The notes beneath the pieces were generated by a model. It saw nothing but the letters and a program-made list of their open reading frames with translations, searched no databases and was not told the DNA's origin. Below, in pieces: positions 1-39,684 of a DNA stretch of 64,000 nucleotides. The translations under genes were made by a program, and so were the position numbers. The stretch's first letter is position 1. Each line of letters begins with the position of its first letter. Source of the stretch: Mesorhizobium sp. M4B.F.Ca.ET.058.02.1.1 (lineage in GTDB: Bacteria > Pseudomonadota > Alphaproteobacteria > Rhizobiales > Rhizobiaceae); contig NZ_CP034450.1 in assembly GCF_003952505.1 (NCBI RefSeq), positions 1,426,001-1,490,000 of the forward strand, given 5' to 3'.

Positions 1-1001
1 GCGATGCTCTCGCCGTTCTCGCGCACGCGCGTCAGCGTGTAGCGCAGCTCGGCCTCCGCCTGGTTCTTGCGCTCGGAGAGCTGGACGAAGTTGCGACCGA
101 TGACCACCATCGAGGTCGAGGTGATGGCGGCATAGATGACAGCGGCGATGACCAGGAAGCCGGGAATGGTGATGGTCTCGCCGGCGATCGGCAGGGTGAG
201 CGCCCCACCGATCGTCCACAGCACCACGATGAAGGTCGAGGCGGCGAGAAACGCCACCAGGACGCCTGAGATGAAATCGACGGGCGAATCGGTGGCGATG
301 CGCAGATCCTCGGTCATGCGGGCTTCGGGGTTCTGGTGGTCGCCGCTGACCAGGTTCAGCTGATAGTAGCGGCCGCTGGCCAGCCAGCGCGAGATGACCG
401 CGGTGGTCAGCCAGGAACGCCAGCGGCGCTGGATCGTCATGCGCAGATAGACCTGCGCAACGACAAGGCTTCCGTTGGCGAACACGAGCGGCAGGAAGAC
501 GGCGGTGAGGAGATAGACGGTGCGGGCGTCGCGCTGCTCGAGGGCGTCGAAGATCGAACGGTTCCAGACATTGATGCCGTACTGGACGCCGACATTGATG
601 CAGATCAGGATCAACAGCCCGATCGTGAACGGCCAGGCGAGCCTGTCGCCGCGCCGGCTCCAGTAGCCGCGGGCGCTGATCCAGAAACGCCGCAGCAGAT
701 ATTTCTTGCGCGCCTGCTCGGCTTCTTCGGGGGTCAGCTTCGGATCGGGTTCGACGGCCTCCGGCGGCGGCGCGGCCTCGCCGTTGACCTCGGGAGCCGA
801 GGCCTTCTCTTCGCGCGACTTCTCTTGGCTCGATTCCTCCTGGCGCGATTTCTCTGCCCTCGTTTTCTCTGGACGCGCCTTCTCTCCGCGCGACTTCTCT
901 TCGTCTGGCGTCCCTGGGCGCGACCGCTTCTGGCGTGACTTCGGGGCACCGCGCGGTTTGGCGCCGGCGGCCGGCTTCGGTTTGGAATCAACTTCTGACA
1001 T
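1..1001 (-). CDS. SbmA/BacA-type ABC transporter, N-terminal part
   Basis: The gene runs off the left edge; 333 codons from the start are present. After the ATG comes a charged, low-complexity arm of about 100 residues made of variations on EKSR, then a conserved stretch with membrane segments (for example residues about 120-140, AWPFTIGLLILICINVGVQY) and the motif region VYLRMTIQRRWRSWLT and ITSTSMVVIGRNF. These are typical of the ABC_membrane_2 permease family (SbmA/BacA, YddA, BclA, peroxisomal-type half transporters), which import peptides or acyl compounds through the inner membrane. Whether an ATP-binding domain follows cannot be seen here; the YddA/BclA branch carries one, BacA does not. 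It is divergent from the Hpt gene. Family placement is fairly sure, the substrate is not. Confidence 0.75.
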   Translation of the reverse strand, partial: MSEVDSKPKPAAGAKPRGAPKSRQKRSRPGTPDEEKSRGEKARPEKTRAEKSRQEESSQEKSREEKASAPEVNGEAAPPPEAVEPDPKLTPEEAEQARKKYLLRRFWISARGYWSRRGDRLAWPFTIGLLILICINVGVQYGINVWNRSIFDALEQRDARTVYLLTAVFLPLVFANGSLVVAQVYLRMTIQRRWRSWLTTAVISRWLASGRYYQLNLVSGDHQNPEARMTEDLRIATDSPVDFISGVLVAFLAASTFIVVLWTIGGALTLPIAGETITIPGFLVIAAVIYAAITSTSMVVIGRNFVQLSERKNQAEAELRYTLTRVRENGESI

Positions 1002-1170
1002 CAGCCGACAACGGCTTCAAAATCAGAAGGTTTCATGCCGTCGGCTCGATAGTCCGGCTGCCGGCAGCCCTGACCAGCACTTGCAACGGCCTGACGCCAC
1101 CCAGCAATCCCGCCCCGGCCATTCCAACACGCCCGACTTTCTGTTTGAATGCCGCCGACATTCGAATGGA

Positions 1171-1455
1171 GTGCGGCCCATTTCAAACGATCCCTTCGCC
1201 CCCTTGCGGGAGCGTTTCCTGGCCCGGTGCGCCGATCAGCTCGCGGAGCTGAAGGCCGCGCGGGAGCAAGGTCCCCTGCCCGACGTGACCAAGCTCGCCC
1301 ACTCGCTGGCGGGAGCCGGCGGAACATTCGGCTTTGCGGAGATCAGTGCCAAGGCAGCGGCGCTGGAGACGCTGCTGGTCGAACAGGCGGATGGCGGTGC
1401 CATTGACGCAGCGCTCGATGCGCTGATCGCGGAGATCGAGCGCACGCTGCAATGA
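1171..1455 (+). CDS. Hpt-domain histidine phosphotransfer protein
   Basis: This small protein of about 94 residues ends at a TGA at 1453-1455. The central stretch KLAHSLAGAGGTFGF matches the Hpt signature in which the histidine of AHSLAG accepts a phosphoryl group from a receiver domain; the rest is helical and alanine/leucine rich as in the four-helix Hpt bundle. No ATG fits: the frame stays open far upstream into the transporter antisense strand, so the GTG at 1171 is chosen because the domain begins just after it. TTG 1081 is an alternative. The gene converges on the glycosyltransferase gene (30 bp between stops). An Hpt protein beside a hybrid kinase with two receiver domains and two free receivers suggests it relays phosphate among them; that is inference. 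Confidence 0.7.
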   Translation: MRPISNDPFAPLRERFLARCADQLAELKAAREQGPLPDVTKLAHSLAGAGGTFGFAEISAKAAALETLLVEQADGGAIDAALDALIAEIERTLQ

Positions 1456-1485
1456 CGCGAATGGCCGGGCGCGAACCGGCCGCGC

Positions 1486-2913
1486 CTATTTCTTGGCGCC
1501 GCCGAGGCCGGTCCTGGTCATCTCGCCCCAGCCCTGGTTGCCGCGCAAAAACTGCCACCAGCCCTTCACGCGCCAGAAATTGTTGAGCTGGCGGTAGCCG
1601 AAATTCTCGATCACGGCGACCGCCGTCAGCACGGCCAGGTCCCTGGCGCGAGGAAAGCGTTGCAACTCGGCCTCTTCGAGGACGAGCGAGCAGACGCTGA
1701 CGCAGACGCCATAGGTGAAGACGAGTGAAGTGAAGGCGAGCAGATATTCGCCCGACAGGATGCCGAGCAGCCAGAAGGCCGGGATCAATATATAGCCCAG
1801 CACCTCGGCCACCGGCCCCAGCACGTCGACGATCAGTATGTGGCCGAAGCCGAGGAAGCCGACGCGGCCGTAGCGCGGGTTGAACAGCATCGCGCGGTAG
1901 CGGAAGAAGCATTCGAGCGCGCCGCGCTGCCAGCGCGTGCGCTGCCTGCCCAGCACGCTCAGCGTCTCCGGCGCCTCGGTCCAGCACACCGGCTCGGGAA
2001 CGAACTGGATGCGGTATTTGCGCCTGGTATCGCGCATGTGGCGGTGCAGCTTGATGACGAGGTCGAGGTCTTCGCCCATCGAACCCTGGGTGAAGCCGCC
2101 GACCGCCACCACTTCGGCGCGGCGGAACATGCCGAAGGCGCCGGAGACCAGCATCAGCGTGTTGATGCGGCTCCAGGCAAGCCTGGCCATCAGGAAAGCG
2201 CGCAGGTATTCGACCACCTGCAGCAGCGGCAGCAGGCGCCACGGCAGGCGCACCTCGCGCACCCTGCCCGCCTCGATCCGCGAGCCGTTGGCGATGCGGA
2301 TCGTGCCGCCGACAGCGATGGTGCGCTCCGGATCGTCGATGAAGGGTTGCGCCGCGCGCATCAGCGCGTCGGGTTCGAGGATGGAATCGCCGTCGATGAC
2401 GCAGAACAGCGGCGCGCGGCAGACATTGATGCCGGCATTCTGGGCATCGGCCTTGCCGCCATTCTCCTTGTCGACCACGAACAGCCGCTCGGTCATCGGC
2501 GAGGAATAGAGGCCGCGGATCGGCTGGTGCGCCAGTTCCTCCTCGTAGGGCCGGTGGAACTTCACCAGCCTGAAGGCCTCGATCAGGCGCTGCAGCGTGT
2601 CGTCCTTCGAGCCGTCGTTGATGACGATCACCTCGAAATTCGGATATTCGAGCGCCAGCATGGAATGGACGCTCTCGACCACGTTCAGTGCCTCGTTGTA
2701 GGCGGGCACCAAAAGCGCGATCGGCGGCGCGACGTCGCCATAGCGGTGCCAGAGCAGCGCCGAGCGCGCCACCGGCGGGCGCATGGACAGCGCGTAGGCG
2801 GCGACGATGAGCTGCAACAGGTAGATCGCCGTTTGCGCCAGCCCGGCCCCGATGATGAACCAGGACAGGATTGAGGCTGTCAGAACGATCTGGTGGCTCC
2901 AGTCGGCGATCAT
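1486..2913 (-). CDS. Membrane glycosyltransferase family 2, processive type
   Basis: The 475-residue protein starts with one membrane span (about residues 12-40), then a GT2 catalytic domain, then three or four C-terminal spans. Key residues visible: DGSKD near 98, GKADAQNAG near 155, DGDS (the DxD metal/UDP site) near 174, GED near 281 (catalytic base) and QRTRWQRG near 326, that is the D, DxD, D, QxxRW set of processive synthases such as PgaC, hyaluronan and cellulose synthases. It should polymerise a sugar nucleotide at the inner membrane and push the chain to the periplasm. The ATG at 2913 overlaps the TGA of the HEAT gene by four bases (ATGA), so the two are translationally coupled; the longer ORF upstream of that ATG is rejected. 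The sugar is unknown. Confidence 0.85.
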   Translation of the reverse strand: MIADWSHQIVLTASILSWFIIGAGLAQTAIYLLQLIVAAYALSMRPPVARSALLWHRYGDVAPPIALLVPAYNEALNVVESVHSMLALEYPNFEVIVINDGSKDDTLQRLIEAFRLVKFHRPYEEELAHQPIRGLYSSPMTERLFVVDKENGGKADAQNAGINVCRAPLFCVIDGDSILEPDALMRAAQPFIDDPERTIAVGGTIRIANGSRIEAGRVREVRLPWRLLPLLQVVEYLRAFLMARLAWSRINTLMLVSGAFGMFRRAEVVAVGGFTQGSMGEDLDLVIKLHRHMRDTRRKYRIQFVPEPVCWTEAPETLSVLGRQRTRWQRGALECFFRYRAMLFNPRYGRVGFLGFGHILIVDVLGPVAEVLGYILIPAFWLLGILSGEYLLAFTSLVFTYGVCVSVCSLVLEEAELQRFPRARDLAVLTAVAVIENFGYRQLNNFWRVKGWWQFLRGNQGWGEMTRTGLGGAKK

Positions 2914-3947
2914 GTGGCAGGGCCCTCGGCAAGGATGAGCGAGGCGGTGCGCTGGCTGCGCGAGACGTCGCTGGCGGCCATCGCGCGCAGCATCTTTTCG
3001 CCGGGCTGGCCGAAGGAGCGCAGCGCGTTGGCGGCGGCATAGCGCACGGTCCACACCTCGTCGTCCATCAGCCCGGCGAGCGTCGCAGCGAGTTCGCTGA
3101 GGCCGAGGCGGCCGGCGGCGTCGGCGGCGTCGGCGCGCACGTCGAGGTCGTCGCTCGCCATCGCGCTCGCCAGGATGGACGGCGCGTCGGCATGGCCGGT
3201 CAGGCCGAGCGCGCGGAGCGCGGCGGCGGCGACCTCGGGTGAGGCATCGCCGGCGAGGCTGGCGAAGAAATCGGCGAAGCCGAAGCCGCCGGCGCGGGCC
3301 AGCGCTTCGATCGCGGCCGCCCTGACGACTGGCACGCCGTCCGCGCGCGATGCATGCACCGCAAGCTCGTTGAAGCGCGTCCGCGGAAAGCGCCTGAACA
3401 GCTCGATGACGCGCCGCGAGCGCTGCCCCGCCACGCCGATATTGTCCAGTACGAAGTCGAGCAGCGGCAGGCTGCCGAGATCGCTGAGCGCGATGGCCGC
3501 GGCGATCCTGACTTCGCGCGAGCGGTCCTCGGCCAGCGCCGAAAGCAGGCGTGCCGACGCATCCTCCGAATCCAGCGCCGCGAGCATCTCGGCGGCGTGG
3601 ATGCGTTCGGCGACGTTGCCTCGTTCAAGCTGCCTGCCGACACGGGCCGGCATGCCGCATTCCTTGAAGGCGGCAAGGACGTCGTCGTGCTCCGCGCCGC
3701 GCAGCAGCGACAGGAATTCGAAGCCGGCATTGATCGCCACCCCGGCCGGCACCGCGAGGATGGCCGCCTTCAGGGCCTCGCGGTCGCGGTTTTCGGTGAA
3801 GGCGATCAGCGCCGTCAGAAGCTGGCGCCGCTGATCGGCGGCGGCAGTGCTCCGGCGCTCCTGCAGCACCCGGCGCGCGATCAAAAGCAGCATGATCACC
3901 AGCGAAAGGGCGCTGAGCAGAATGGACATGTCCCAGACCAGCCACAT
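2910..3947 (-). CDS. Membrane-anchored HEAT-repeat protein
   Basis: The chosen start, ATG 3947, lies two bases after the stop of the upstream TPR/barrel gene and gives 345 residues: an N-terminal membrane segment (about residues 8-28, ILLSALSLVIMLLLIARRVL), a basic stretch, then from about residue 100 onward a series of helix pairs of the HEAT/PBS type with repeated motifs such as VRIAAAIALSDLG, VVRAAAIEALARAG, EVAAAALRALG, DVRADAADAAGRLG and VRYAAANALRSFG. HEAT repeats form a curved scaffold for protein binding. Anchored in the inner membrane and encoded between an outer-membrane exporter and a polysaccharide synthase, it probably bridges or regulates the two. The domain faces the cytoplasm or periplasm depending on topology, which I cannot settle. 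The domain is clear, the role inferred. Confidence 0.8.
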   Translation of the reverse strand: MWLVWDMSILLSALSLVIMLLLIARRVLQERRSTAAADQRRQLLTALIAFTENRDREALKAAILAVPAGVAINAGFEFLSLLRGAEHDDVLAAFKECGMPARVGRQLERGNVAERIHAAEMLAALDSEDASARLLSALAEDRSREVRIAAAIALSDLGSLPLLDFVLDNIGVAGQRSRRVIELFRRFPRTRFNELAVHASRADGVPVVRAAAIEALARAGGFGFADFFASLAGDASPEVAAAALRALGLTGHADAPSILASAMASDDLDVRADAADAAGRLGLSELAATLAGLMDDEVWTVRYAAANALRSFGQPGEKMLRAMAASDVSRSQRTASLILAEGPAT

Positions 3948-3949
3948 GA

Positions 3950-5707
3950 TCAGAACCGCGCGGTCAGACCGAGCCCGAATATGGTCCGGTCGAAGGTCGG
4001 GCGTTGCTCGTGCGCCAGGCTGGCGCGCAGCGTCAGCGGATCGCTGACATCCCAGGAAAGGCCACCGAAGACGGTGCGCGTCGGCACCAGCGTGCCGTCG
4101 GAGATTTCCGGCGCGTCGGCGTAACCGCCGAACAGGTTGAAGCGGGGCGTCACCACAAGATCGGCGCGCAGCACATAACCGTCGGCGCGCGTGCCGATAT
4201 CGTCCTCGGCGTGCACCCAGCGGGCGGAAAGCCCGAGGCGGCCATCGAGGATGTAGCCCTGCACCCGGGGCGAGATGGTGGTGACGCCGGCATTGGCGAA
4301 ATCGTCGTAGCGGGCGTCGATGTTGAGCGAGACCGGACCGAATTGCCTGGCCGGCGCCATGACCTGCCAGGACGCGCCGGCACCGATCGAGTAGCGCGCC
4401 AGGAAATCGGCGTCCGGGGTCGCTGCCGCCAGCGCATAGGCGGAGAAGGCGGGCGAAAAGGCCTGGTCGATGCGGCCCTCGACCTGGACGTCGGTATGGC
4501 CGTAGCGGGTCGCCACCCGGCTGCGGCCCGAAATGGTCGTTGCCGGCGACAGCCGATAGGCAAGACCTGCCGAACTGTCGGTCCAGTCGCCGAGCCCGTC
4601 GCTGAGATCGCTCATCTCTGTGCCGATATCGAGCCGCCATTTGCGCGGCGGCGGCACGGCCAGCCTCTGCTCGATGTCGGCGGAGCCGGGCTCGATGGCC
4701 AGCGCCTGTCGGTAGGCCAGCCGCGCGGCGGCGTCGTCACCCTCGGCGCGGCGCACATCGCCGATGCCGACCAGCGCCTCGGCATTGCGCGGATCGACCG
4801 CAAATGCGCGCTGGAACGACTGTTCGGCCCGCCTGTAATCCGCTTCCAGCAGGGCAATCCTGGCGTCGAGGTTCAGCACCTCGACATTGTCCGGCGCCGA
4901 AGCCAGCGCCTCATCGGCCAGCGCGCGGGCGCGCGGCAAATCGCCCTGCCAGATCGCCAGGCGCACCTTGCCGAGGCGAGCGTCGAGCAGGCCGGGATCG
5001 ATGGCCAACGCCCTGTCGAAAAAATGCCCGGCCTCGTCGAAGCGCTGGCCGGAGCCGACGACAAGGCCAAGGGCGACCAGTATGTCGGTGTTCTTCGGCG
5101 CCAGCCTTAGCGCCCGGCGATAGGCCTGCTCGGCCTCTGGCAGCTTGCCCGCCGCCCTGAGCCGCCTGCCCTGCTGCATCAGCCCGGCGACGGGATCCGC
5201 CCGCCGCGGGGGCGCCTTCTTCGCGGGCACTGCAGCCGCCGGAGCGGGCTTCATCTTGCTGCCGGCGGCGGCCTGCTTTGCCTTGCGAATGGTCTCGACC
5301 AGCGCCGCGGCGTCGGCATTGCCGGGCTCGGCGCGGACCACCGATTCGGCCAGCGGCAGTGCCGCATCCAGATTGCCGGAGCGGAACTCAACCTCGGCCA
5401 GGCCGAAGCTGGCATCCTGATAGGCCGGGGCAAGCGAGAGCGCCCTGGAAAAGGCCTCGCGCGCGGCCGGCAGATCGTTGCGGCCGAGCTCGGCAAAGCC
5501 GAGCTGCACCAGAACATCGGCATTGCCGGGTTTCAGCGCCAGCGCGCGCTTGAGCAGGTCCGCCGCCTCATCGAAATGCTGGGCTTGCCTTGCCTTGACG
5601 CCGGACGCGTAGAGCTCGTCGGCGGTCTGGGCCAATGAGACGCCGGGAGATGCGGCGATTGCCAGGAACATGCATGCGGCAATGGCGGCGCGCCGGCTTC
5701 GCTGCAT
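3950..5707 (-). CDS. TPR protein with C-terminal YaiO-like outer-membrane beta-barrel
   Basis: The protein has 585 residues. A signal peptide (residues 1-27, ending SLAQ) is followed by TPR units (about 28-160 and 175-335, for example ALKPGNADVLVQLGFAELGR and ALRLAPKNTDILVALGLVVG) separated by a K/P/A-rich linker. From about 350 to the end there are alternating beta-strand segments of a barrel, finishing with the aromatic C-terminal residue (TARF) typical of proteins inserted by the Bam complex. The layout resembles PgaA-like export proteins and YaiO/NfrA-type proteins: periplasmic TPR superhelix plus outer-membrane pore. The ATG 5707 overlaps the stop of the receiver gene by one base (TGATG). 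With the downstream glycosyltransferase it most likely exports a polysaccharide. Confidence 0.82.
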   Translation of the reverse strand: MQRSRRAAIAACMFLAIAASPGVSLAQTADELYASGVKARQAQHFDEAADLLKRALALKPGNADVLVQLGFAELGRNDLPAAREAFSRALSLAPAYQDASFGLAEVEFRSGNLDAALPLAESVVRAEPGNADAAALVETIRKAKQAAAGSKMKPAPAAAVPAKKAPPRRADPVAGLMQQGRRLRAAGKLPEAEQAYRRALRLAPKNTDILVALGLVVGSGQRFDEAGHFFDRALAIDPGLLDARLGKVRLAIWQGDLPRARALADEALASAPDNVEVLNLDARIALLEADYRRAEQSFQRAFAVDPRNAEALVGIGDVRRAEGDDAAARLAYRQALAIEPGSADIEQRLAVPPPRKWRLDIGTEMSDLSDGLGDWTDSSAGLAYRLSPATTISGRSRVATRYGHTDVQVEGRIDQAFSPAFSAYALAAATPDADFLARYSIGAGASWQVMAPARQFGPVSLNIDARYDDFANAGVTTISPRVQGYILDGRLGLSARWVHAEDDIGTRADGYVLRADLVVTPRFNLFGGYADAPEISDGTLVPTRTVFGGLSWDVSDPLTLRASLAHEQRPTFDRTIFGLGLTARF

Positions 5708-6093
5708 CAGCGCTTGTTCCGCGCGATCAGACGCGCAAGCCGGGCCAGGAGTTCTTCGGGGATGAACGGCTTCACCAGGTAGTCGTCGGCACCCTTTTCG
5801 AGCGCCGAGACGATGTCCTTTTCGGCCTTGCGCGCGGTCAGCATGACGACCGGAGTTTCGGACAGAGCCGGATCGCCCTTGATGCGCGCCAGCACCTCGA
5901 TGCCGTCAGCCTTGGGCATCATCGCATCGAGCACGATGATGTCGGGTGCGTCCCGCTCCGCCTTGGAGAGCGCTTCGGCACCGTCGACCGCTTTGATGAC
6001 CTCGTATCCCTTCGCCCTCAGCCTGAATTCCATCAGCTCGAGCAGCAACGGATCGTCATCGCAGATCAGAATTCTTGCCTTCGCTCCGTTCAC
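5707..6093 (-). CDS. Stand-alone response-regulator receiver protein
   Basis: This is a single receiver domain of 128 residues: acidic pocket ICDDD near residues 10-14, phospho-acceptor aspartate in VLDAMMP near 55, threonine in MLTARKAEK near 83 and the conserved lysine in LVKPF near 105. No output domain follows. The start chosen is GTG 6093, which has GGAG eight bases upstream and places the domain right at the N-terminus; ATG 6147 and ATG 6165 (the latter with GGAA upstream) are in-frame alternatives. It is the first gene of the coupled unit receiver, TPR/barrel, HEAT, glycosyltransferase, so it probably passes a phosphorylation signal to the polysaccharide machine by protein contact. A 268-bp gap separates it from the next receiver gene; that gap probably carries the operon promoter. 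Confidence 0.85.
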   Translation of the reverse strand: MNGAKARILICDDDPLLLELMEFRLRAKGYEVIKAVDGAEALSKAERDAPDIIVLDAMMPKADGIEVLARIKGDPALSETPVVMLTARKAEKDIVSALEKGADDYLVKPFIPEELLARLARLIARNKR

Positions 6094-6361
6094 CTGTCCT
6101 GCTCCGGTTCCGTCGCCCCCCGGAGTGATCAATCCATGGACCGCCATCCGCCAATGCGGGTCCATGCCATAGTTCCGCGCGGGTGTTCCCCGCGCCCGCC
6201 AACGCCGCGTAATCATAGATAAAGCCGATTCGCGACGGCCGCATTTCGATACAATCAGTAGATGAATATGAGGGCATGGTATAGGAGCCGTAAACGGCGC
6301 CGCACAGCTTCCGCAGCAGCTTATCGCCTATGCCGGCCGCGTGGACATCCGAAGCAGGCCG

Positions 6362-6742
6362 TCAGCCCGTTCGTAGCGCAAGCAGCTTGCTGACTTCACC
6401 GGCAAGCGCCAGCGGGTCGAAGGGTTTGGCGATGACCCCGACTGCCCCCATGGCCAGATAGTGTTCGACCTGATGCGTCTGGGTGCGCGCCGTGATGAAC
6501 GCCACGGGTATCGATGCCGTAAGCGGCGAGGCGGCCAGCCGCTTCAGCGTCTCCGGCCCGTCCATGTCCGGCATCATCACGTCGAGCAGGATGAGGTTGG
6601 GCTGCCAATCGGCGGCGACCGCCAGTGCTTCGGCGCCAGAAGAGCAGGACCGCACCTCGAACCGTGGCTCGAGCTCGAGCGACATTTGGGCGATCTCGCG
6701 AATGTCGTCCTCGTCATCCACATAGAGTATCCTTGTCGACAT
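6362..6742 (-). CDS. Second stand-alone receiver protein
   Basis: The 126-residue protein has a complete receiver domain and nothing else: VDDEDD near residues 8-13, the acceptor aspartate in LLDVMMPDMDG near 54, the threonine in FITARTQ near 83 and lysine in VIAKPFDP near 105. ATG 6742 follows the stop of the hybrid kinase gene by five bases and has GGGAG eight bases upstream. A GTG at 6751 that overlaps the kinase stop (GTGA) is possible but has its AGGGA directly adjacent. It is therefore the second gene of a kinase-receiver operon and is the obvious phospho-acceptor of that kinase or of the Hpt protein. It differs clearly in sequence from the receiver at 5707-6093, so this is not a recent duplication. 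Confidence 0.85.
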   Translation of the reverse strand: MSTRILYVDDEDDIREIAQMSLELEPRFEVRSCSSGAEALAVAADWQPNLILLDVMMPDMDGPETLKRLAASPLTASIPVAFITARTQTHQVEHYLAMGAVGVIAKPFDPLALAGEVSKLLALRTG

Positions 6743-6747
6743 CAACC

Positions 6748-9189
6748 TCACTCCCTTGCTTGCACGGTGGGTCCCGCTGCGTTGCGGGACGCAACCAACA
6801 TGCGTCGGACCAGCTTGGCCACATCGATCTCCGACGCCCTGGTCTTGGTCATCATCGCCTGCACCCGGTCGCCGAGTTTCTCGTCCATCTCCGCCGCCGA
6901 GAACACGATAACTCCGGTCTCCTGCGGCAGATCGATGAGCAGATCCAGCCCCGATCCGTCAGGAAGCGCGATGTCGAGGATGACCAGGTCGTAGCGATGC
7001 TTCGCGACCGCCCGCCGCGCCTCCTGCAGCGTTTTCGCCGAAGCGATCAAGACGTCCGGACCCAGCCCCGCCGACATTACGGCAAGCACACCTTCGTCGT
7101 CCTCGACGTGGAGGATCCTCGGCCTCCGCTCGACCTTGCCGGCGACGATCTTGGCGAGAGCGGCATGAAGCCGCGTCGAATCCACCGGCTTTTCCAGCCA
7201 GTCGACGATGCCGACGGCGGTGCCGTTCAGCGAACGCTTGGCCTCATCGGCGACGGCGGAGATGACGATGACCGAAATGTCGGAATTCACCGGTGACGCC
7301 CTGATGTCGTGAAAGAGCTTGATACCGGATTCCCCGGCAAGCTTGATATCGAGCGTCAGCGCCACATAGTCGCGGGTGCGCAGGAGCGCCATGGCGGTGT
7401 CGATGTCGGGGGCGACGTCGCTGGAAAAGCCTTCCGCATCGAGGAGTGCCGCGATCACCGCCGCGACATCGGTCTCGTCCTCGCAAATGAGAACACGCAG
7501 GCGGCCATCGCGCGGCCGCGATCGACGCTCCGTCGCAACCGGCTTCTCGGCCTGCCTTTGCGCTTCGGCAAGGTCGACGTGGAACGAGGTTCCCTTGCCT
7601 TCCTCGGTTTCGAAGGAAACGGCGCCGCCCAGCTTTTCCACGATGGTCTTGACGATGCTCAAGCCGAGACCGGTGCCGCCCTGCTTGCGGGTGCTCGACG
7701 CGTCCGCCTGCTCGAACTTGCCGAATATGCGGCTGCGGAATGCCTCGGGAATGCCAGCGCCCTGATCGATCACCGAGATGCGCAGCATGTCACGATCGCG
7801 GCGCTCCAGTTTCACCGTCACGGTGCCGTCGGCGTCGGAGAACTTGATTGCATTCGACAGGAGATTGGCCATCACCTGATGCAGGCGATCCTCATCGATG
7901 TTGGCCTCGGCGCGCGGGGCATCGTCGACCAGGACGATGCGGATTCGGCCATCGGCCCTATAGTTGGAACTGGCGGCAATGGCCTGCTCCAGCAGGGGGC
8001 GAACAGGCATCTGCCTGATCTTGAAGGCGATCACGCCCGATTCGATCTTCTCCATGTCGAGGATGTCGTTGATGAGAAGAACCAGCCTCTCGCTGTTGTT
8101 GTGGGCGATGTTGATGAGGTTGGCGGCCTTTGGCGGCAGTTCGCCCGCCACTCCGGCCGCGATCAGGCCAAGCGAACCGCGGATTGATGTCAGCGGGGTG
8201 CGCAATTCATGGCTGACCGTCGAGATGAAATCGTTCTTGAGCTGGGCATTTCGTTTCTGCTCCGTGATGTCGCGATTGTAGGTGATGACGCCGGTGATCT
8301 TGCCGGCCTCGTCGCGGAACGGCGCCTTCAGCGTGTAGAGCCAGCCCTGCCTGCCGTCCGGGAAAACCGCCGGCTGGTCGATGCGCAGCGTCTGCCCGGC
8401 CTCCAGCGCGCCCATCTCGTCCTGCCGGAAGCGCTCAGCCACATCCTTCGGATAGAAATCGAAATCCGTCTTGCCGATAAGGTTCTCGACCGAAGTGGCT
8501 CTCACCATTTCGGCGGTCGCCGGATTGGCCGCGATGAAGCGGCCGTCGACATCCTTTATGTTGAGGCAATCCGGCAGCTCGCGAACCATGGCCCGGTAGA
8601 TCATGTTGGACATTGCGAGTTCGCGCCGTCGCTCCTGGCGGTCGAGCAGCACGCTGATGATGATGGTGCTGAGGAAGCGGAAAACGAGGGACGGGAACGT
8701 GCTCAGCTGCACCATGCCGGCGACGACCTGGGGTGGGATGACCAGAAGCGTGATCAGCCCGGCGAGAGCGACCGACACGCCGAGGCCGAAAATGTCGAAG
8801 ATGGTGCGCGTTCGGGCGGCGACGATGTGATGCCATGCAATGCCAACGACAGCCGTGATGAGGATGCCCACGATTCCGATGCTCGCGCCCTGCCCGCCGA
8901 GATGAATGCGATAGGCAATCGAACCGGCGGTGGCGATGATCATTGCAGGCCATCCGCCAAAGAACGCGGCGGCGGCGATGAAGGCTGCGCGCAGATCGAC
9001 GATGAAGCCGGCGACAGAGAGCGCCGTCGCCATGGAAATGATCGCGCCGGCGCACATGACCACGCCGAGAATCAGCGACCGCCTCCGCCGCGAAAGTCGC
9101 CCGGTGAAATCCGCCACAAGGTCCCAGGCGACCACCAGGATGGAGACCAGCGCAAGATTGGCGAGGAGTGAGCGCCAGATATCGGTCAT
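6748..9189 (-). CDS. Hybrid sensor histidine kinase: 5TM-LYT, PAS, HisKA, HATPase, two receivers
   Basis: The 813-residue protein has an N-terminal membrane module (about residues 1-180, with FFGGWPAMIIATAGSIAYR and HLGGQG) that fits the 5TM-5TMR_LYT sensor family. A PAS domain follows (about 195-315, DCLNIKDVDGRFIAANPATA), then HisKA with the phospho-accepting histidine in STVSHELRTPL near 326. The HATPase has the N box NLLSNAIKFS near 441 and the G boxes GAGIP and GTGLGLS. Two receiver domains follow: acceptor aspartate in TLDIKL near 613, and in ILDIALPDGSG near 738. Two receivers in series imply a phosphorelay needing an Hpt protein, and one is encoded at 1171-1455. LytS-type 5TM modules in other kinases sense extracellular or membrane signals; the ligand here is unknown. 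Confidence 0.88.
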   Translation of the reverse strand: MTDIWRSLLANLALVSILVVAWDLVADFTGRLSRRRRSLILGVVMCAGAIISMATALSVAGFIVDLRAAFIAAAAFFGGWPAMIIATAGSIAYRIHLGGQGASIGIVGILITAVVGIAWHHIVAARTRTIFDIFGLGVSVALAGLITLLVIPPQVVAGMVQLSTFPSLVFRFLSTIIISVLLDRQERRRELAMSNMIYRAMVRELPDCLNIKDVDGRFIAANPATAEMVRATSVENLIGKTDFDFYPKDVAERFRQDEMGALEAGQTLRIDQPAVFPDGRQGWLYTLKAPFRDEAGKITGVITYNRDITEQKRNAQLKNDFISTVSHELRTPLTSIRGSLGLIAAGVAGELPPKAANLINIAHNNSERLVLLINDILDMEKIESGVIAFKIRQMPVRPLLEQAIAASSNYRADGRIRIVLVDDAPRAEANIDEDRLHQVMANLLSNAIKFSDADGTVTVKLERRDRDMLRISVIDQGAGIPEAFRSRIFGKFEQADASSTRKQGGTGLGLSIVKTIVEKLGGAVSFETEEGKGTSFHVDLAEAQRQAEKPVATERRSRPRDGRLRVLICEDETDVAAVIAALLDAEGFSSDVAPDIDTAMALLRTRDYVALTLDIKLAGESGIKLFHDIRASPVNSDISVIVISAVADEAKRSLNGTAVGIVDWLEKPVDSTRLHAALAKIVAGKVERRPRILHVEDDEGVLAVMSAGLGPDVLIASAKTLQEARRAVAKHRYDLVILDIALPDGSGLDLLIDLPQETGVIVFSAAEMDEKLGDRVQAMMTKTRASEIDVAKLVRRMLVASRNAAGPTVQARE

Positions 9190-9394
9190 GACTTTCCGGC
9201 TCCTTTTCTCCGATAGATACCGGCAAAACCTATCCGAGGTCTAAAGAGCCGTGGACCGGTCTGAGCGACAATGGGACAGGCCGAAACGCCGAATCGGCGA
9301 CCAGTGCGAAGCGTCAGGCCGACGCGATCATCGCCCAGCGAACGGCATATGTCGACGACCTCCGGCCGCAGGCTAGGTGGCGGAAGGTCGATGG

Positions 9395-9590
9395 TGGCTG
9401 CGCCACCCAGGCCTCGATCTGCTGCGTGACGAAGGCAGCCGCCTGGTGGTGGATGAAATGGCCGGCGCCAGGCAGCGCCACCACGGAAGAGACGTTGTCG
9501 ACCTCGCGGAACGTGCCGTCGAAGGCACTGGCCGGAACATAGCGGCCGTCGGCGCCGAAGATCACCAAAGTCGGCGTACCAAAGGCAAAT
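9395..9590 (-). pseudogene. C-terminal remnant of an alpha/beta-hydrolase
   Basis: On the minus strand, residues such as PTLVIFGADGRYVP and VVALPGAGHFIHHQAAAFV are the usual last third of an alpha/beta-hydrolase: the strand carrying the acid residue, then the catalytic-histidine loop GAGHF and the final helix. Nothing resembling the nucleophile elbow or N-terminal half lies upstream; instead, beyond about 9600 the sequence switches to a fragment of another gene on the opposite strand. The frame runs on to 9314 with no convincing hydrolase end. I call it a gene remnant. It sits between the hybrid kinase (starting at 9189) and the patatin gene. Confidence 0.6.
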
Positions 9591-9599
9591 GGCGTCGCC

Positions 9600-9776
9600 A
9601 AGCAGTTGCTGGGGCATGGCCTGGTCGACCGCATCCGCCTGCTCAGCTATCCCGGCGTCGTCGGCCACGGCAAGCCGCTGTTTGCGCCCGGCGGGCGAGT
9701 GCCGCTCGAGCTGATTTCGGCAACGCCGTTCAGCAACGGCGTGGTGGCGCTGGAATATGCAACCGCGAAGTCTTGA
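9600..9776 (+). pseudogene. C-terminal remnant of a RibD_C/dihydrofolate-reductase family protein
   Basis: On the plus strand one frame reads KQLLGHGLVDRIRLLSYPGV, then VGHGKPLF, then ATPFSNGVVALEYATAKS and a TGA at 9774-9776. This is the typical end of small RibD C-domain/DHFR-like proteins (helix LLxxGLVDE, strand of the form PVVLGxGKPLF, final strand ending in LxY). The N-terminal two thirds, including the nucleotide-binding part, are absent, and the reading frame upstream has no start codon in a plausible place. It abuts the hydrolase remnant so that both genes have lost their 5' halves at one junction near 9590-9600. Confidence 0.55.
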
Positions 9777-9840
9777 TGCAGCTTCGCAGGGGACGGCGAT
9801 GATGGCCACCTCACCCGCTTGGGAGATCGGCAGCTTTCCC

Positions 9841-36747: not shown

Positions 36748-39486
36748 CTATCCCTGTTTTGTCGTCAGAGTTCCCGACGCCGGAACGCCTTGGCCGTCAT
36801 CCGCCACGCTCGCCGTGTGGAGCAGTTTCTCGATGCCCTGGGCAGAGACCGGCTTGCTGAAATGATAGCCCTGCATTTCATCGCAATTGTTCTTGCGCAG
36901 GAAGGCCACCTGGTCGTCTGTCTCGACTCCCTCGGCAATGACCCTAAGATGCAGATTCTGACCCAGTGAAATCACGGCGCTGGCGACAGCCTGATCGTTC
37001 TCGTCGGCGGCGAGATCCTTGATGAATGACTTGTCGATCTTCAGCCGCGCCACGGGAAAGGTCTTGAGCGCGCTGAGGCTGGAATAGCCTGTTCCGAAAT
37101 CGTCGATCGAAATCTGAACCCCCAGGCTCTGCAAGGCGTCCATCGTCGCGACCGCCAATTCGACGTCCTGCATGATAAGGCTCTCGGTTACCTCGAGCTC
37201 GAGATGTCTGGCCTCCAGGCCGCTGTCCGTCAGCGCGTTCACGACACGGCCAATCAGGTTCGGTTCCCTGAATTGCCGCGCCGAGACGTTTACGCATACG
37301 GTCAGGGGTGGCAGACCGGCATCCTGCCAGGCCTTGTTCTGCCGACAGGCTTCGTGCAGGACCCAGTCGCCGATCGGTACGATCAGCCCGGTCTCCTCGG
37401 CGGTCGGAATGAACGTGTCCGGCGCCACCATGCCTCGCGTCGGATGCTTCCAACGCAGCAAAGCCTCGACCGCAAAGACGTCTCCTGAGCGAAGATCGAC
37501 CTGCGGCTGATAGAGCAGAATGAATTCCGAGCGAGCCAGGGCATTTCGCAACTCCTCCTGAAGCAGGAATTTCTCATGCGCCCTGGTGTTGAACTCGGGA
37601 GCGTAGAACTGGAAATTGTCGCGGCCGAATTCCTTCGCGCGGTACATGGCAGCATCGGCATTGGCCAGCAGCTGATCTGGATTCGTCCCATCCTTGGGAT
37701 AGTTGGCGATGCCGATGCTGGCCGTCGCCCTCAGCCGATGCCTTCCCAGATGAACCGGCTCCGCGATCGCTGCCCGGATCTTTTGCAGGGTCTCGGAGAT
37801 CAGATCGACATTCGTCGGCTGGTCGAACAGGACTATGACGAACTCGTCGCCGCCAAGCCGCACGACTGTGTCGGTCGGCCTTACGCATTCGACCATGCGG
37901 TTGGCGACGGTCTTCAGCAGTACGTCGCCGGCGTTGTGGCCGAGCGTGTCGTTGACGAGTTTGAAATTGTCGAGGTCGATGAACACCACCGTCACCCAGC
38001 GATCGTACCGCTGCGCATAGAGCAGAGCCTGCGAGAGCCGGTCCTCGAGCAGAGCGCGATTTGGAAGCCCTGTCAGCACATCATGGTTGGCCATGAAATG
38101 AATCTGGTCTTCAGCCAGTTTGCGCTCGATGGCGATCCCTGCAATCCGTGTCGTGAAGTCGATCAGCCGCGTTTCGGCCTCGGTCGGTTCGCGCACCGTC
38201 ATCGAATACATCGCAAAGACACCGAGCACGGCGCCTTGATGCGATAGGATCGGGGTCGACCAGCAGGAACGATAGCCGAAGGGCGCCACCACCTGACGGT
38301 ATTCTTCCCAAAGCGGGTCCTGCATGATGTCCGCGACGATGACCGGCTCCCGCCGGTAGACGGCGGTGCCACATGATCCAACCTTGGGGCCGATGGCGAT
38401 CCCGTCGATGGCATCGGTATATTCTTTCGCCAGGCTCGGCGCGCCGCCGTGCCGCAAATGGCTGCCGTCCTTGTCGAGCAGCAGGACGGAACCGAATATC
38501 CCCGTCAACTGCGACTCGACGAGGCGCATCAGACGGTCGAGCACGTCTTCGAGCAGGGCGCTCATTGCGATCATTTCCAGGATATGCGCCTGCCCGTCCC
38601 GAAGGACGTCCGCCTGCTTGCGTGCGGTGACATCGTGAGCGATGCCAACCAGTCCGATGACGTCATTCTGGGCATTGCGCAGCGGCACCTTTGTCGATGA
38701 CACCCACTTGCCGGCGCCCAATGCATCGACAATGAACTCTTCCTTGTCGATCATTGGTTGCCCGCTGCTGAGCACGTTCTGCTCCACAGCGCGAAATTTC
38801 CGAGCAAGTTCCGGGGCATGGAGATCAAAATCGGTCAAACCGACCATGTCGCTGGTCTTCTCCCTTCCGCTGTCGAGCGCGAGAGCCCTGTTCGCCACGA
38901 TGAAGCGGCTTTCCGTGTCCTTGACCCAGAGATAGTCGGGCACCCAGTCGATCAGCGTTTGCAGCGAGATGCGCTCAGCGGCGATCTGTCGATTGGCAGC
39001 GAGCGCCGTAATGTCCTCATGCGTGGCCACCCAACTGCCGTCGGGCATAGGCTGGTGGCAGACCTGAATTGTCCGACCGTCGGCGAGGTTGGCGGTCCAT
39101 ACTCTTGGTGCCGTGCCCGAATTGGCGGAGCGGGCCAATGCAAGATAGGCGTCGGCATCGGTCGCGGAGGTTCCGACAGCGACGCGAAGTGCGACGATTT
39201 CCCGGAGCGTTAGCCCCGGCCGCAATTGCTCAGGCGCAATGTGGTAGATTTCCGCATAGCGGCGGTTGGACAGGATCAGCCGTTCACCGGCGTCGAAAAA
39301 GCAGATGCCCTGCGAAACGTTGTCGATCGCCGTCTCAAATCGCAGCGCCTGCCCTTCGAGCGATGCGATCCTGGCTCGAAGATCGCGCTCGAGCGTTTCG
39401 TATGAAGCCATCGTCAGCTTTGCCAGCGCCGCAAGATTGGCCGACTCGGGTGCTTCGGCGGCTTTCCTGGATGATTTCGTGCCCAA
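36748..39486 (-). CDS. PAS-GAF-GGDEF-EAL cyclic-di-GMP turnover protein
   Basis: The start is set at TTG 39486 because GGAGGAA stands seven bases upstream; the longer ORF from a GTG at 39525 has no such site. The protein has 912 residues: PAS domains (about 40-150 and 170-300), a GAF domain (about 310-460), a diguanylate cyclase domain with intact GGDEF (about 545) and an inhibitory RxxD (RPTD) exactly five residues before it, and a phosphodiesterase domain with intact EALLRW (about 673) and DDFGTGYSSL. Both activities could therefore be real, with product inhibition of the cyclase. No membrane span is seen, so the sensor part works in the cytoplasm. It might feed the polysaccharide synthase at 1486-2913, but that is speculation. 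Confidence 0.9.
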   Translation of the reverse strand: MGTKSSRKAAEAPESANLAALAKLTMASYETLERDLRARIASLEGQALRFETAIDNVSQGICFFDAGERLILSNRRYAEIYHIAPEQLRPGLTLREIVALRVAVGTSATDADAYLALARSANSGTAPRVWTANLADGRTIQVCHQPMPDGSWVATHEDITALAANRQIAAERISLQTLIDWVPDYLWVKDTESRFIVANRALALDSGREKTSDMVGLTDFDLHAPELARKFRAVEQNVLSSGQPMIDKEEFIVDALGAGKWVSSTKVPLRNAQNDVIGLVGIAHDVTARKQADVLRDGQAHILEMIAMSALLEDVLDRLMRLVESQLTGIFGSVLLLDKDGSHLRHGGAPSLAKEYTDAIDGIAIGPKVGSCGTAVYRREPVIVADIMQDPLWEEYRQVVAPFGYRSCWSTPILSHQGAVLGVFAMYSMTVREPTEAETRLIDFTTRIAGIAIERKLAEDQIHFMANHDVLTGLPNRALLEDRLSQALLYAQRYDRWVTVVFIDLDNFKLVNDTLGHNAGDVLLKTVANRMVECVRPTDTVVRLGGDEFVIVLFDQPTNVDLISETLQKIRAAIAEPVHLGRHRLRATASIGIANYPKDGTNPDQLLANADAAMYRAKEFGRDNFQFYAPEFNTRAHEKFLLQEELRNALARSEFILLYQPQVDLRSGDVFAVEALLRWKHPTRGMVAPDTFIPTAEETGLIVPIGDWVLHEACRQNKAWQDAGLPPLTVCVNVSARQFREPNLIGRVVNALTDSGLEARHLELEVTESLIMQDVELAVATMDALQSLGVQISIDDFGTGYSSLSALKTFPVARLKIDKSFIKDLAADENDQAVASAVISLGQNLHLRVIAEGVETDDQVAFLRKNNCDEMQGYHFSKPVSAQGIEKLLHTASVADDGQGVPASGTLTTKQG

Positions 39487-39684
39487 ACAGAGTTCCTCCA
39501 GTTTGGTGCCGGCGCAAAGCAACACGGCTCGCCTTCAACCCAAAAGCGACCGCATCGTGATCGATATATACTAATGGTAGGTGAACCGGGAGCGGTAGGT
39601 TGTGTCTATCTGAAAATCCTGGCGCTGTTCCCTAGCCACGATTTTTTGAGTCCCGGATGCAGGCGCGGCCGCTACGCCGCGCCG

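Follow-up and report, generated by a model that had tools for sequence, protein, structure and literature searches.

Can a phosphorelay set the activity of a polysaccharide synthase by protein contact? The question is raised by a locus of Mesorhizobium sp. M4B.F.Ca.ET.058.02.1.1 that lies in a stretch of 64,000 nucleotides (the window, whose positions are used throughout; positions 1426001-1490000 of a genome of 6.46 Mb, one contig). An earlier note on this DNA had described a hybrid histidine kinase with two receivers, two stand-alone receivers and an Hpt protein flanking genes for a tetratricopeptide repeat (TPR)/beta-barrel protein, a HEAT-repeat protein and a family 2 glycosyltransferase (GT2), and this description was confirmed by open reading frames, Pfam and NCBIfam. 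The first receiver, a YaiO-type barrel protein, the HEAT protein and the GT2 form a real unit, and HEAT–GT2 is its invariant core. On balance we lean, if only slightly, to the view that the unit is a cassette that makes and exports a polysaccharide by the synthase-dependent route, that the HEAT protein is an obligate partner of the synthase, and that activity is set by the receiver instead of cyclic di-GMP (c-di-GMP).

Organization of the locus

All seven genes were recovered in their places by an open reading frame check, with Pfam and NCBIfam in agreement. The features are as follows.

1171-1455, + strand: Hpt protein (Pfam Hpt PF01627, 49 bits, cut-off 24.6); GTG start; convergent to the GT2 gene
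1486-2913, - strand: membrane GT2, likely a polysaccharide synthase, 475 aa (PF13641, 97.2 bits, cut-off 27)
2910-3947, - strand: HEAT-repeat protein, 345 aa (Pfam HEAT_2, 81 bits, cut-off 27.7)
3950-5707, - strand: TPR/YaiO-type beta-barrel protein, 585 aa (TIGR04390, 176.4 bits, cut-off 32)
5707-6093, - strand: receiver 1, stand-alone, first of the four-gene set (Pfam Response_reg, 106.5 bits)
6094-6361, - strand: stretch between the two stand-alone receiver genes, where a promoter of the four-gene set may lie (from sequence)
6362-6751, - strand: receiver 2, stand-alone; GTG start overlapping the kinase stop (Pfam Response_reg, 89.1 bits)
6748-9189, - strand: hybrid histidine kinase with a 5TM-5TMR_LYT membrane sensor, PAS, HisKA, HATPase and two receivers (Pfam)

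The tight junctions reported earlier are present in the sequence: TGATG between receiver 1 and the barrel gene (5709-5705), a two-base gap between the barrel and HEAT genes (3949-3948), and an ATGA overlap between the HEAT and GT2 genes (2913-2910). Receiver 1 probably starts at GTG 6093, which matches the start of an annotated relative from WSM1271 (WP_013525347.1); its open frame extends back to 6216.

Conservation of the gene set

A scan with the GT2 recovered 216 relatives, and loci L009-L088 are the 80 best of these, 30 of them from the Mesorhizobium group. Presence was scored by core-gene profiles, at those loci where the upstream DNA was long enough. The closest relatives of the GT2 are from Mesorhizobium, with 98% identity to L036. 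The HEAT gene lies directly upstream of the GT2 gene in 76 of 77 evaluable loci, the exception (L082) being a partial GT2 match, and overlap or near-overlap of these two genes is almost universal. A YaiO-type gene is found upstream in 71/73. A receiver gene of the same orientation occurs in the 6 kb upstream in 59/68, and by the stricter measure, immediately before the barrel gene, in 62/71, nine further loci not being evaluable for the latter count. One locus, L015, was scored receiver-positive in the 59/68 count and in the phosphorelay tally given below, and receiver-negative in the 62/71 count.

The same gene order with near-zero gaps persists in relatives down to 50-65% GT2 identity, which is more than chance. 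When 16 further loci were considered, the HEAT gene adjoined the GT2 gene in 15/15, with YaiO in 13/15 and a receiver in 12/14 of the evaluable ones. Among these, L119, L123 and L124 are the same DNA as the scan loci L039, L043 and L057; L118 had too little flank for evaluation, and L117 is apparently the other side of a contig break in the same genome. The view that the genes make up one conserved unit thus held, as they are not routinely found apart. The set reaches far beyond the Rhizobiales, with the receiver frequent and not universal.

For 26 hand-picked loci, pairwise distances were correlated at 0.82 for HEAT–GT2, 0.69 for receiver 1–GT2, 0.66 for receiver 1–HEAT and 0.41 for receiver 1–barrel. 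Shared ancestry raises all of these values, so only their ranking is informative.

Some loci depart from the common form. In Methylobacterium (L048, L051, L052, L053, L056), YaiO-HEAT-GT2 is kept with no adjacent receiver, and the YaiO protein is mostly longer, at 754-761 aa; in L053 it was called with 597 aa. A frame joining the kinase to receiver 1 in L015 (Mesorhizobium amorphae CCBAU 01570) was considered as a natural fusion and rejected, since the alignment shows a deletion of ~0.9 kb. At L015:2583-5213, this loss lets the kinase frame run into just the C-terminal half of receiver 1 and removes receiver 2; it is a strain-level event or an assembly fault. A Maricaulaceae locus (L079:5776-6907) has a YaiO gene that is seemingly split across two frames. 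The copy on a Devosia plasmid (L125:3835-8437) appears eroded or misread: its GT2 is annotated as two pieces, and the C-terminal end of its receiver 1 diverges from relatives as though out of frame.

The HEAT-linked glycosyltransferase clade

The GT2 clade was found in 19 of 81 genomes of the genus (G204 by a partial match), 5 of 121 in the family sample and 4 of 142 in the class sample at a threshold of 1e-90, and in 13 of 299 in the phylum sample at 1e-70, the source genome being included each time. A HEAT profile gave full-length matches in the same four genomes of the class sample, plus two partial ones (6/142). In three Mesorhizobium ciceri records the cassette is on plasmids. Such a patchy clade looks like an accessory trait, not a housekeeping one.

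In a plasmid collection, 14 records scored at least 251 bits, the next scoring 168 bits among the matches listed at a looser limit (60 of 138). These 14 come from Alpha- and Gammaproteobacteria, Bacillota (Paenibacillus, Planococcus), Deinococcus, Bacteroidota and three haloarchaea, and in all 14 the HEAT gene is directly upstream of the GT2 gene. Twelve of the loci were opened, and two were read from the features under the match; the Paenibacillus record carries no annotation. Pfam HEAT_2 was above its cut-off in nine of ten plasmid HEAT proteins scanned, Emticicia reaching 25.0 against 27.7. The HEAT profile recovered 11 of the 12 opened loci, missing Emticicia. Six weaker GT2 matches (168 to 128 bits, not strictly the next six) were opened with 3-kb flanks, and no HEAT gene was annotated beside any of them; together with the Escherichia coli yai and pga loci, they gave 0/8 with the HEAT profile.

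In a GT2 tree of 65 sequences, 51 HEAT-linked proteins separated from 14 others with a support of 0.992, those others being eight comparison sequences and six further GT2s of the source genome whose neighbours were unchecked. On a clade profile, 17 HEAT-linked GT2s outside the profile scored at least 277 bits and other GT2s at most 183. The window GT2 belongs to the HEAT-linked clade both by the HEAT gene directly upstream and by its placement. The HEAT protein is well supported as the partner of the GT2.

The three haloarchaeal plasmids carry receiver–HEAT–GT2 without a barrel gene, as would be expected because haloarchaea have no outer membrane. Between receiver and HEAT of Halosolutus lies a short hypothetical gene that may encode the N-terminal piece of the HEAT protein.

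The surroundings of the plasmid loci differ. YaiO-HEAT-GT2 of Legionella adelaidensis (L133:1739-8126) stands between genes for a nucleotide sugar dehydrogenase and an epimerase, and in Halosolutus (L135:7441-10415) a sugar nucleotidyltransferase gene and glmS follow the GT2 gene. These neighbours hint at a uronic acid donor in the former and an amino sugar donor in the latter, so that donors may differ by lineage. The setting is different again in Planococcus (L136:1-7386), where genes for a polyphosphate polymerase, DUF4956, a CotH kinase and a hypothetical protein precede HEAT-GT2.

Predicted properties of the synthase, barrel and HEAT proteins

The GT2 contains the motifs DGS (100-102), DGDS (174-177), GED (280-282) and QRTRW (324-328), and hydrophobic segments flank its catalytic part on both sides; it thus has the D, DxD, ED and QxxRW signatures and the flanking membrane helices of processive membrane GT2s. 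Its predicted model (pLDDT 87.9) matches the fold of hyaluronan and cellulose synthases across 370-390 residues. Motifs and fold accordingly agree with the processive type assigned earlier, and the protein is likely, by sequence and model, to be a polysaccharide synthase. The best curated model was that of PgaC/IcaA (TIGR03937), at 147.6 bits against an equivalog cut-off of 422.3, and on this score the protein was rejected as a PgaC/IcaA poly-N-acetylglucosamine synthase. It was likewise rejected as the BcsA cellulose synthase (TIGR03030, 53.8 bits against 699.1) and as NodC, whose model scored far under its cut-off.

A GT2 of this kind might instead make a glycolipid or a lipid-linked sugar, which the YaiO/TPR protein would then handle in place of a polymer. 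We consider this improbable in view of the QRTRW motif, the full-length match to processive synthases and the fact that even the sub-threshold best model is that of a polymer synthase; a TPR part with an outer-membrane barrel is also the usual arrangement for export in synthase systems.

The barrel protein had been likened earlier to PgaA. Its TPR and barrel parts were upheld, and its type was not: the barrel is YaiO-type, the TIGR04390 match spanning residues 357-585 and Pfam YaiO giving 31.7 bits (cut-off 23.9). An N-terminal hydrophobic, signal-peptide-like segment (7-25) precedes the TPR repeats. As a PgaA exporter the protein was rejected (TIGR03939, 62.6 bits against 366.65, the best stretch lying within the TPR part).

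The HEAT protein has a hydrophobic segment at residues 6-24, then an arginine-rich stretch and then the HEAT solenoid. By the positive-inside rule, this order should place the solenoid in the cytoplasm, and we predict a membrane-anchored solenoid on the cytoplasmic side. Its model has a pLDDT of 94.3. A fold search (best 50 of 166, E <= 0.001) returned general HEAT/armadillo solenoids, such as designed alphaRep, importin and PP2A scaffold proteins, and no specific relative.

Receivers and phosphorelay genes

As far as sequence can tell, the parts of a His-Asp phosphorelay are present: a hybrid kinase, an Hpt protein with an acceptor histidine (His44 in AHSLAGAGG) and a receiver with an acceptor aspartate, which in receiver 1 is D97. 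In 29 receivers chosen for alignment, the acceptor Asp was found in 28, and Thr/Ser and Lys in all 29. When a cassette receiver from another class was used as query, receiver 1 was the top of 27 matches in the source genome (107.6 against 86.5 bits for the next). With two haloarchaeal cassette receivers it came first of 24 and second of 31, and with a non-cassette haloarchaeal receiver, as control, fourth of 6. On these ranks the haloarchaeal receivers are at most candidate orthologues of receiver 1.

The phosphorelay genes were tallied at the 61 loci with full flanks, 19 of the 80 being left out for short flanks. Window proteins served as queries and divergent kinases were missed, so these counts are lower bounds. 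Loci of the Mesorhizobium group had the kinase in 28/28, Hpt in 28/28 and receiver 2 in 27/28. The other 33 comprise 27 with receiver 1, among which the kinase was found in 14, receiver 2 in 14, Hpt in 10 and all three in 10, and six without it, which had receiver 2 in 0/6, the kinase in two and Hpt in one (L082). The satellite genes remain at the locus despite rearrangement, for example as GT2-kinase-receiver 2-Hpt in several Brevundimonas loci.

Could the phosphorelay act on transcription through a distant DNA-binding regulator, the exopolysaccharide genes adjoining it through shared regulation only? Receivers 2 and 1 are ~270 bases apart (145 if the long receiver 1 frame is taken), so that kinase/receiver 2 and the four-gene set may form separate transcription units, the latter perhaps with its own promoter; the differing position of the kinase, receiver 2 and Hpt among lineages also fits. 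No match to the sigma-70 consensus occurs on the - strand in the stretch before receiver 1, and no promoter was located there. In 1000-9800, three consensus-like sites were found where 0.7 would be expected, and one of the three precedes the kinase (- strand, 9355-9327); terminator-like sites in the same region were not in excess over shuffled sequence, and no RNA families or tRNAs were found in the window. Against this explanation, no DNA-binding output domain is present among the Pfam matches of the seven proteins, as had been claimed earlier, receiver 1 overlaps the barrel gene, and receiver 2 accompanies receiver 1 in 14/27 non-Mesorhizobium loci against 0/6 without it, small as these numbers are. 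We regard transcriptional action as very improbable.

The same Pfam matches contain no PilZ, GGDEF, EAL or MshEN, again in line with the earlier note; c-di-GMP control may still come from a factor encoded elsewhere. A GGDEF-EAL protein is encoded at 36751-39525, ~27 kb off the cassette, with no sign of action on it.

Control of the synthase by receiver 1 has to be weighed against a simpler explanation, in which the HEAT protein is a constitutive assembly or stability subunit, control lies elsewhere, and the receiver is a phosphate sink or a co-transcribed regulator of something else. PgaD probably plays such a part for PgaC. Several observations weigh against the receiver as switch. No receiver was annotated or seen near HEAT–GT2 in the Paenibacillus, Planococcus, Deinococcus, Bacteroides and Legionella records. 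Nine scan loci lack one before the barrel gene (five Methylobacterium, L069, L074, L078 and L015). Degenerate receivers are found in L108 (6955-7395) and L112 (11706-12158), which come from two genomes of a single non-alpha family, with Lys changed to Arg in both and Asp to Glu in L108, and the Emticicia cassette has a degenerate receiver as well. The kinase, receiver 2 and Hpt are common, but their presence, place and strand vary by lineage. On the other side, receiver 1 heads the coupled set in 62 of the 71 loci, a receiver precedes HEAT in the three haloarchaeal plasmids, and receiver 1 tracks HEAT and GT2 more closely than it does the adjacent barrel gene. The degenerate receivers of L108 and L112 are still first in the set, and degenerate receivers suggest that in some lineages contact is kept without phosphorylation. 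We therefore judge a purely constitutive HEAT partner rather unlikely, and prefer the receiver-controlled cassette.

Proposed mechanism

In the receiver-controlled cassette, the GT2 would build a chain from a nucleotide sugar and extrude it at the inner membrane, and the TPR/YaiO barrel protein would carry the chain across the periplasm and outer membrane. On the cytoplasmic side, the membrane-anchored HEAT solenoid would be the obligate partner subunit of the synthase. Phosphate would pass from the hybrid kinase to its receiver, to Hpt and to receiver 1, with receiver 2 as a side branch or sink. A receiver without an output domain must work via protein contact or phosphate transfer; given its position in the cassette, and with no c-di-GMP domain encoded in the set, the most probable target is the HEAT–GT2 complex. 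Phosphorylated receiver 1 may thus dock on the HEAT protein or on the HEAT–GT2 complex and set synthase activity by contact, occupying the role held by c-di-GMP in many synthase systems. In this scheme we infer the polymer and its export, both contacts, the direction of control and the phosphate route; what is observed is the gene set with its domains and synteny, the almost constant link of HEAT to this GT2 clade, the motifs and fold of the synthase, and the phosphorylation residues kept by most of the aligned receivers.

A broader version is tentative, and we would sooner doubt than hold it: receiver–HEAT–GT2 could be an ancient synthase switch common to bacteria and haloarchaea, with HEAT as the universal regulatory subunit of the clade and two-component phosphorylation, not c-di-GMP, as the original input, YaiO/TPR having been added later by diderms.

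Taken singly, YaiO barrels, processive GT2s, phosphorelays and HEAT scaffolds are familiar. What appears to be new is the almost constant presence of a HEAT partner with one GT2 clade in both bacteria and archaea, together with a receiver as input to a synthase-type system. The earlier note had recognised no named locus with this set, and none is described in the open-licence literature searched; subscription papers, mostly outside that coverage, may hold an earlier description. One literature match for HEAT and exopolysaccharide was rejected, as the part of that paper available mentions HEAT repeats only for beta-catenin (PMC12419801). The cassette would give a widespread synthase clade a different gene-encoded partner, with two-component input in most Pseudomonadota loci seen, and would account for genes annotated merely as 'HEAT repeat domain-containing protein' next to 'glycosyltransferase'. 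It also offers a gene set and residues with which phosphorelay switching of a polymer synthase can be tested, in archaea as well as in tractable soil bacteria.

Comparison with known systems

PgaABCD of E. coli K-12 shares with the window an exporter, a processive GT2 (PgaC) and an extra synthase subunit (PgaD) in one operon, but it has no HEAT protein and no annotated receiver in the operon, and it is under c-di-GMP control. The E. coli yaiO-yaiX-yaiP-yaiS locus also has a YaiO barrel near a GT2 (YaiP); it differs in having no HEAT protein and no annotated receiver, and on the clade profile YaiP reaches 46.5 bits, compared with at least 277 for the 17 HEAT-linked GT2s outside that profile. 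The window GT2, unlike the Bcs system, has no PilZ match. In Bcs, a receiver-like domain is found in BcsE, within a regulator of a processive synthase; by the portion of the source available, this domain is degenerate and the signal is c-di-GMP (PMC7439463).

Post-translational control of synthase-dependent polysaccharides is, according to the part available of a recent account, well characterised and frequently based on c-di-GMP (PMC12802240). The same portion reports that in Myxococcus xanthus the single-domain receiver EpsW switches polysaccharide synthesis post-translationally; its target EpsZ is a phosphoglycosyl transferase of a Wzx/Wzy pathway, whereas the window cassette has a GT2, and neither a HEAT partner nor a GT2 synthase nor a YaiO barrel is mentioned there (PMC12802240). 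As the GT2 is the only sugar-transfer enzyme among the seven proteins, the window cassette may work like EpsW/EpsZ and is not a member of that system. In Methanobacteriaceae, as far as the available part of the source goes, receiver domains are fused to a PF13641 glycosyltransferase (e.g., MTH_548), placing in one polypeptide what the window encodes as separate proteins (PMC5847659). By analogy, EpsW/EpsZ and these receiver–GT2 fusions appear to be the nearest precedents for the control proposed here.

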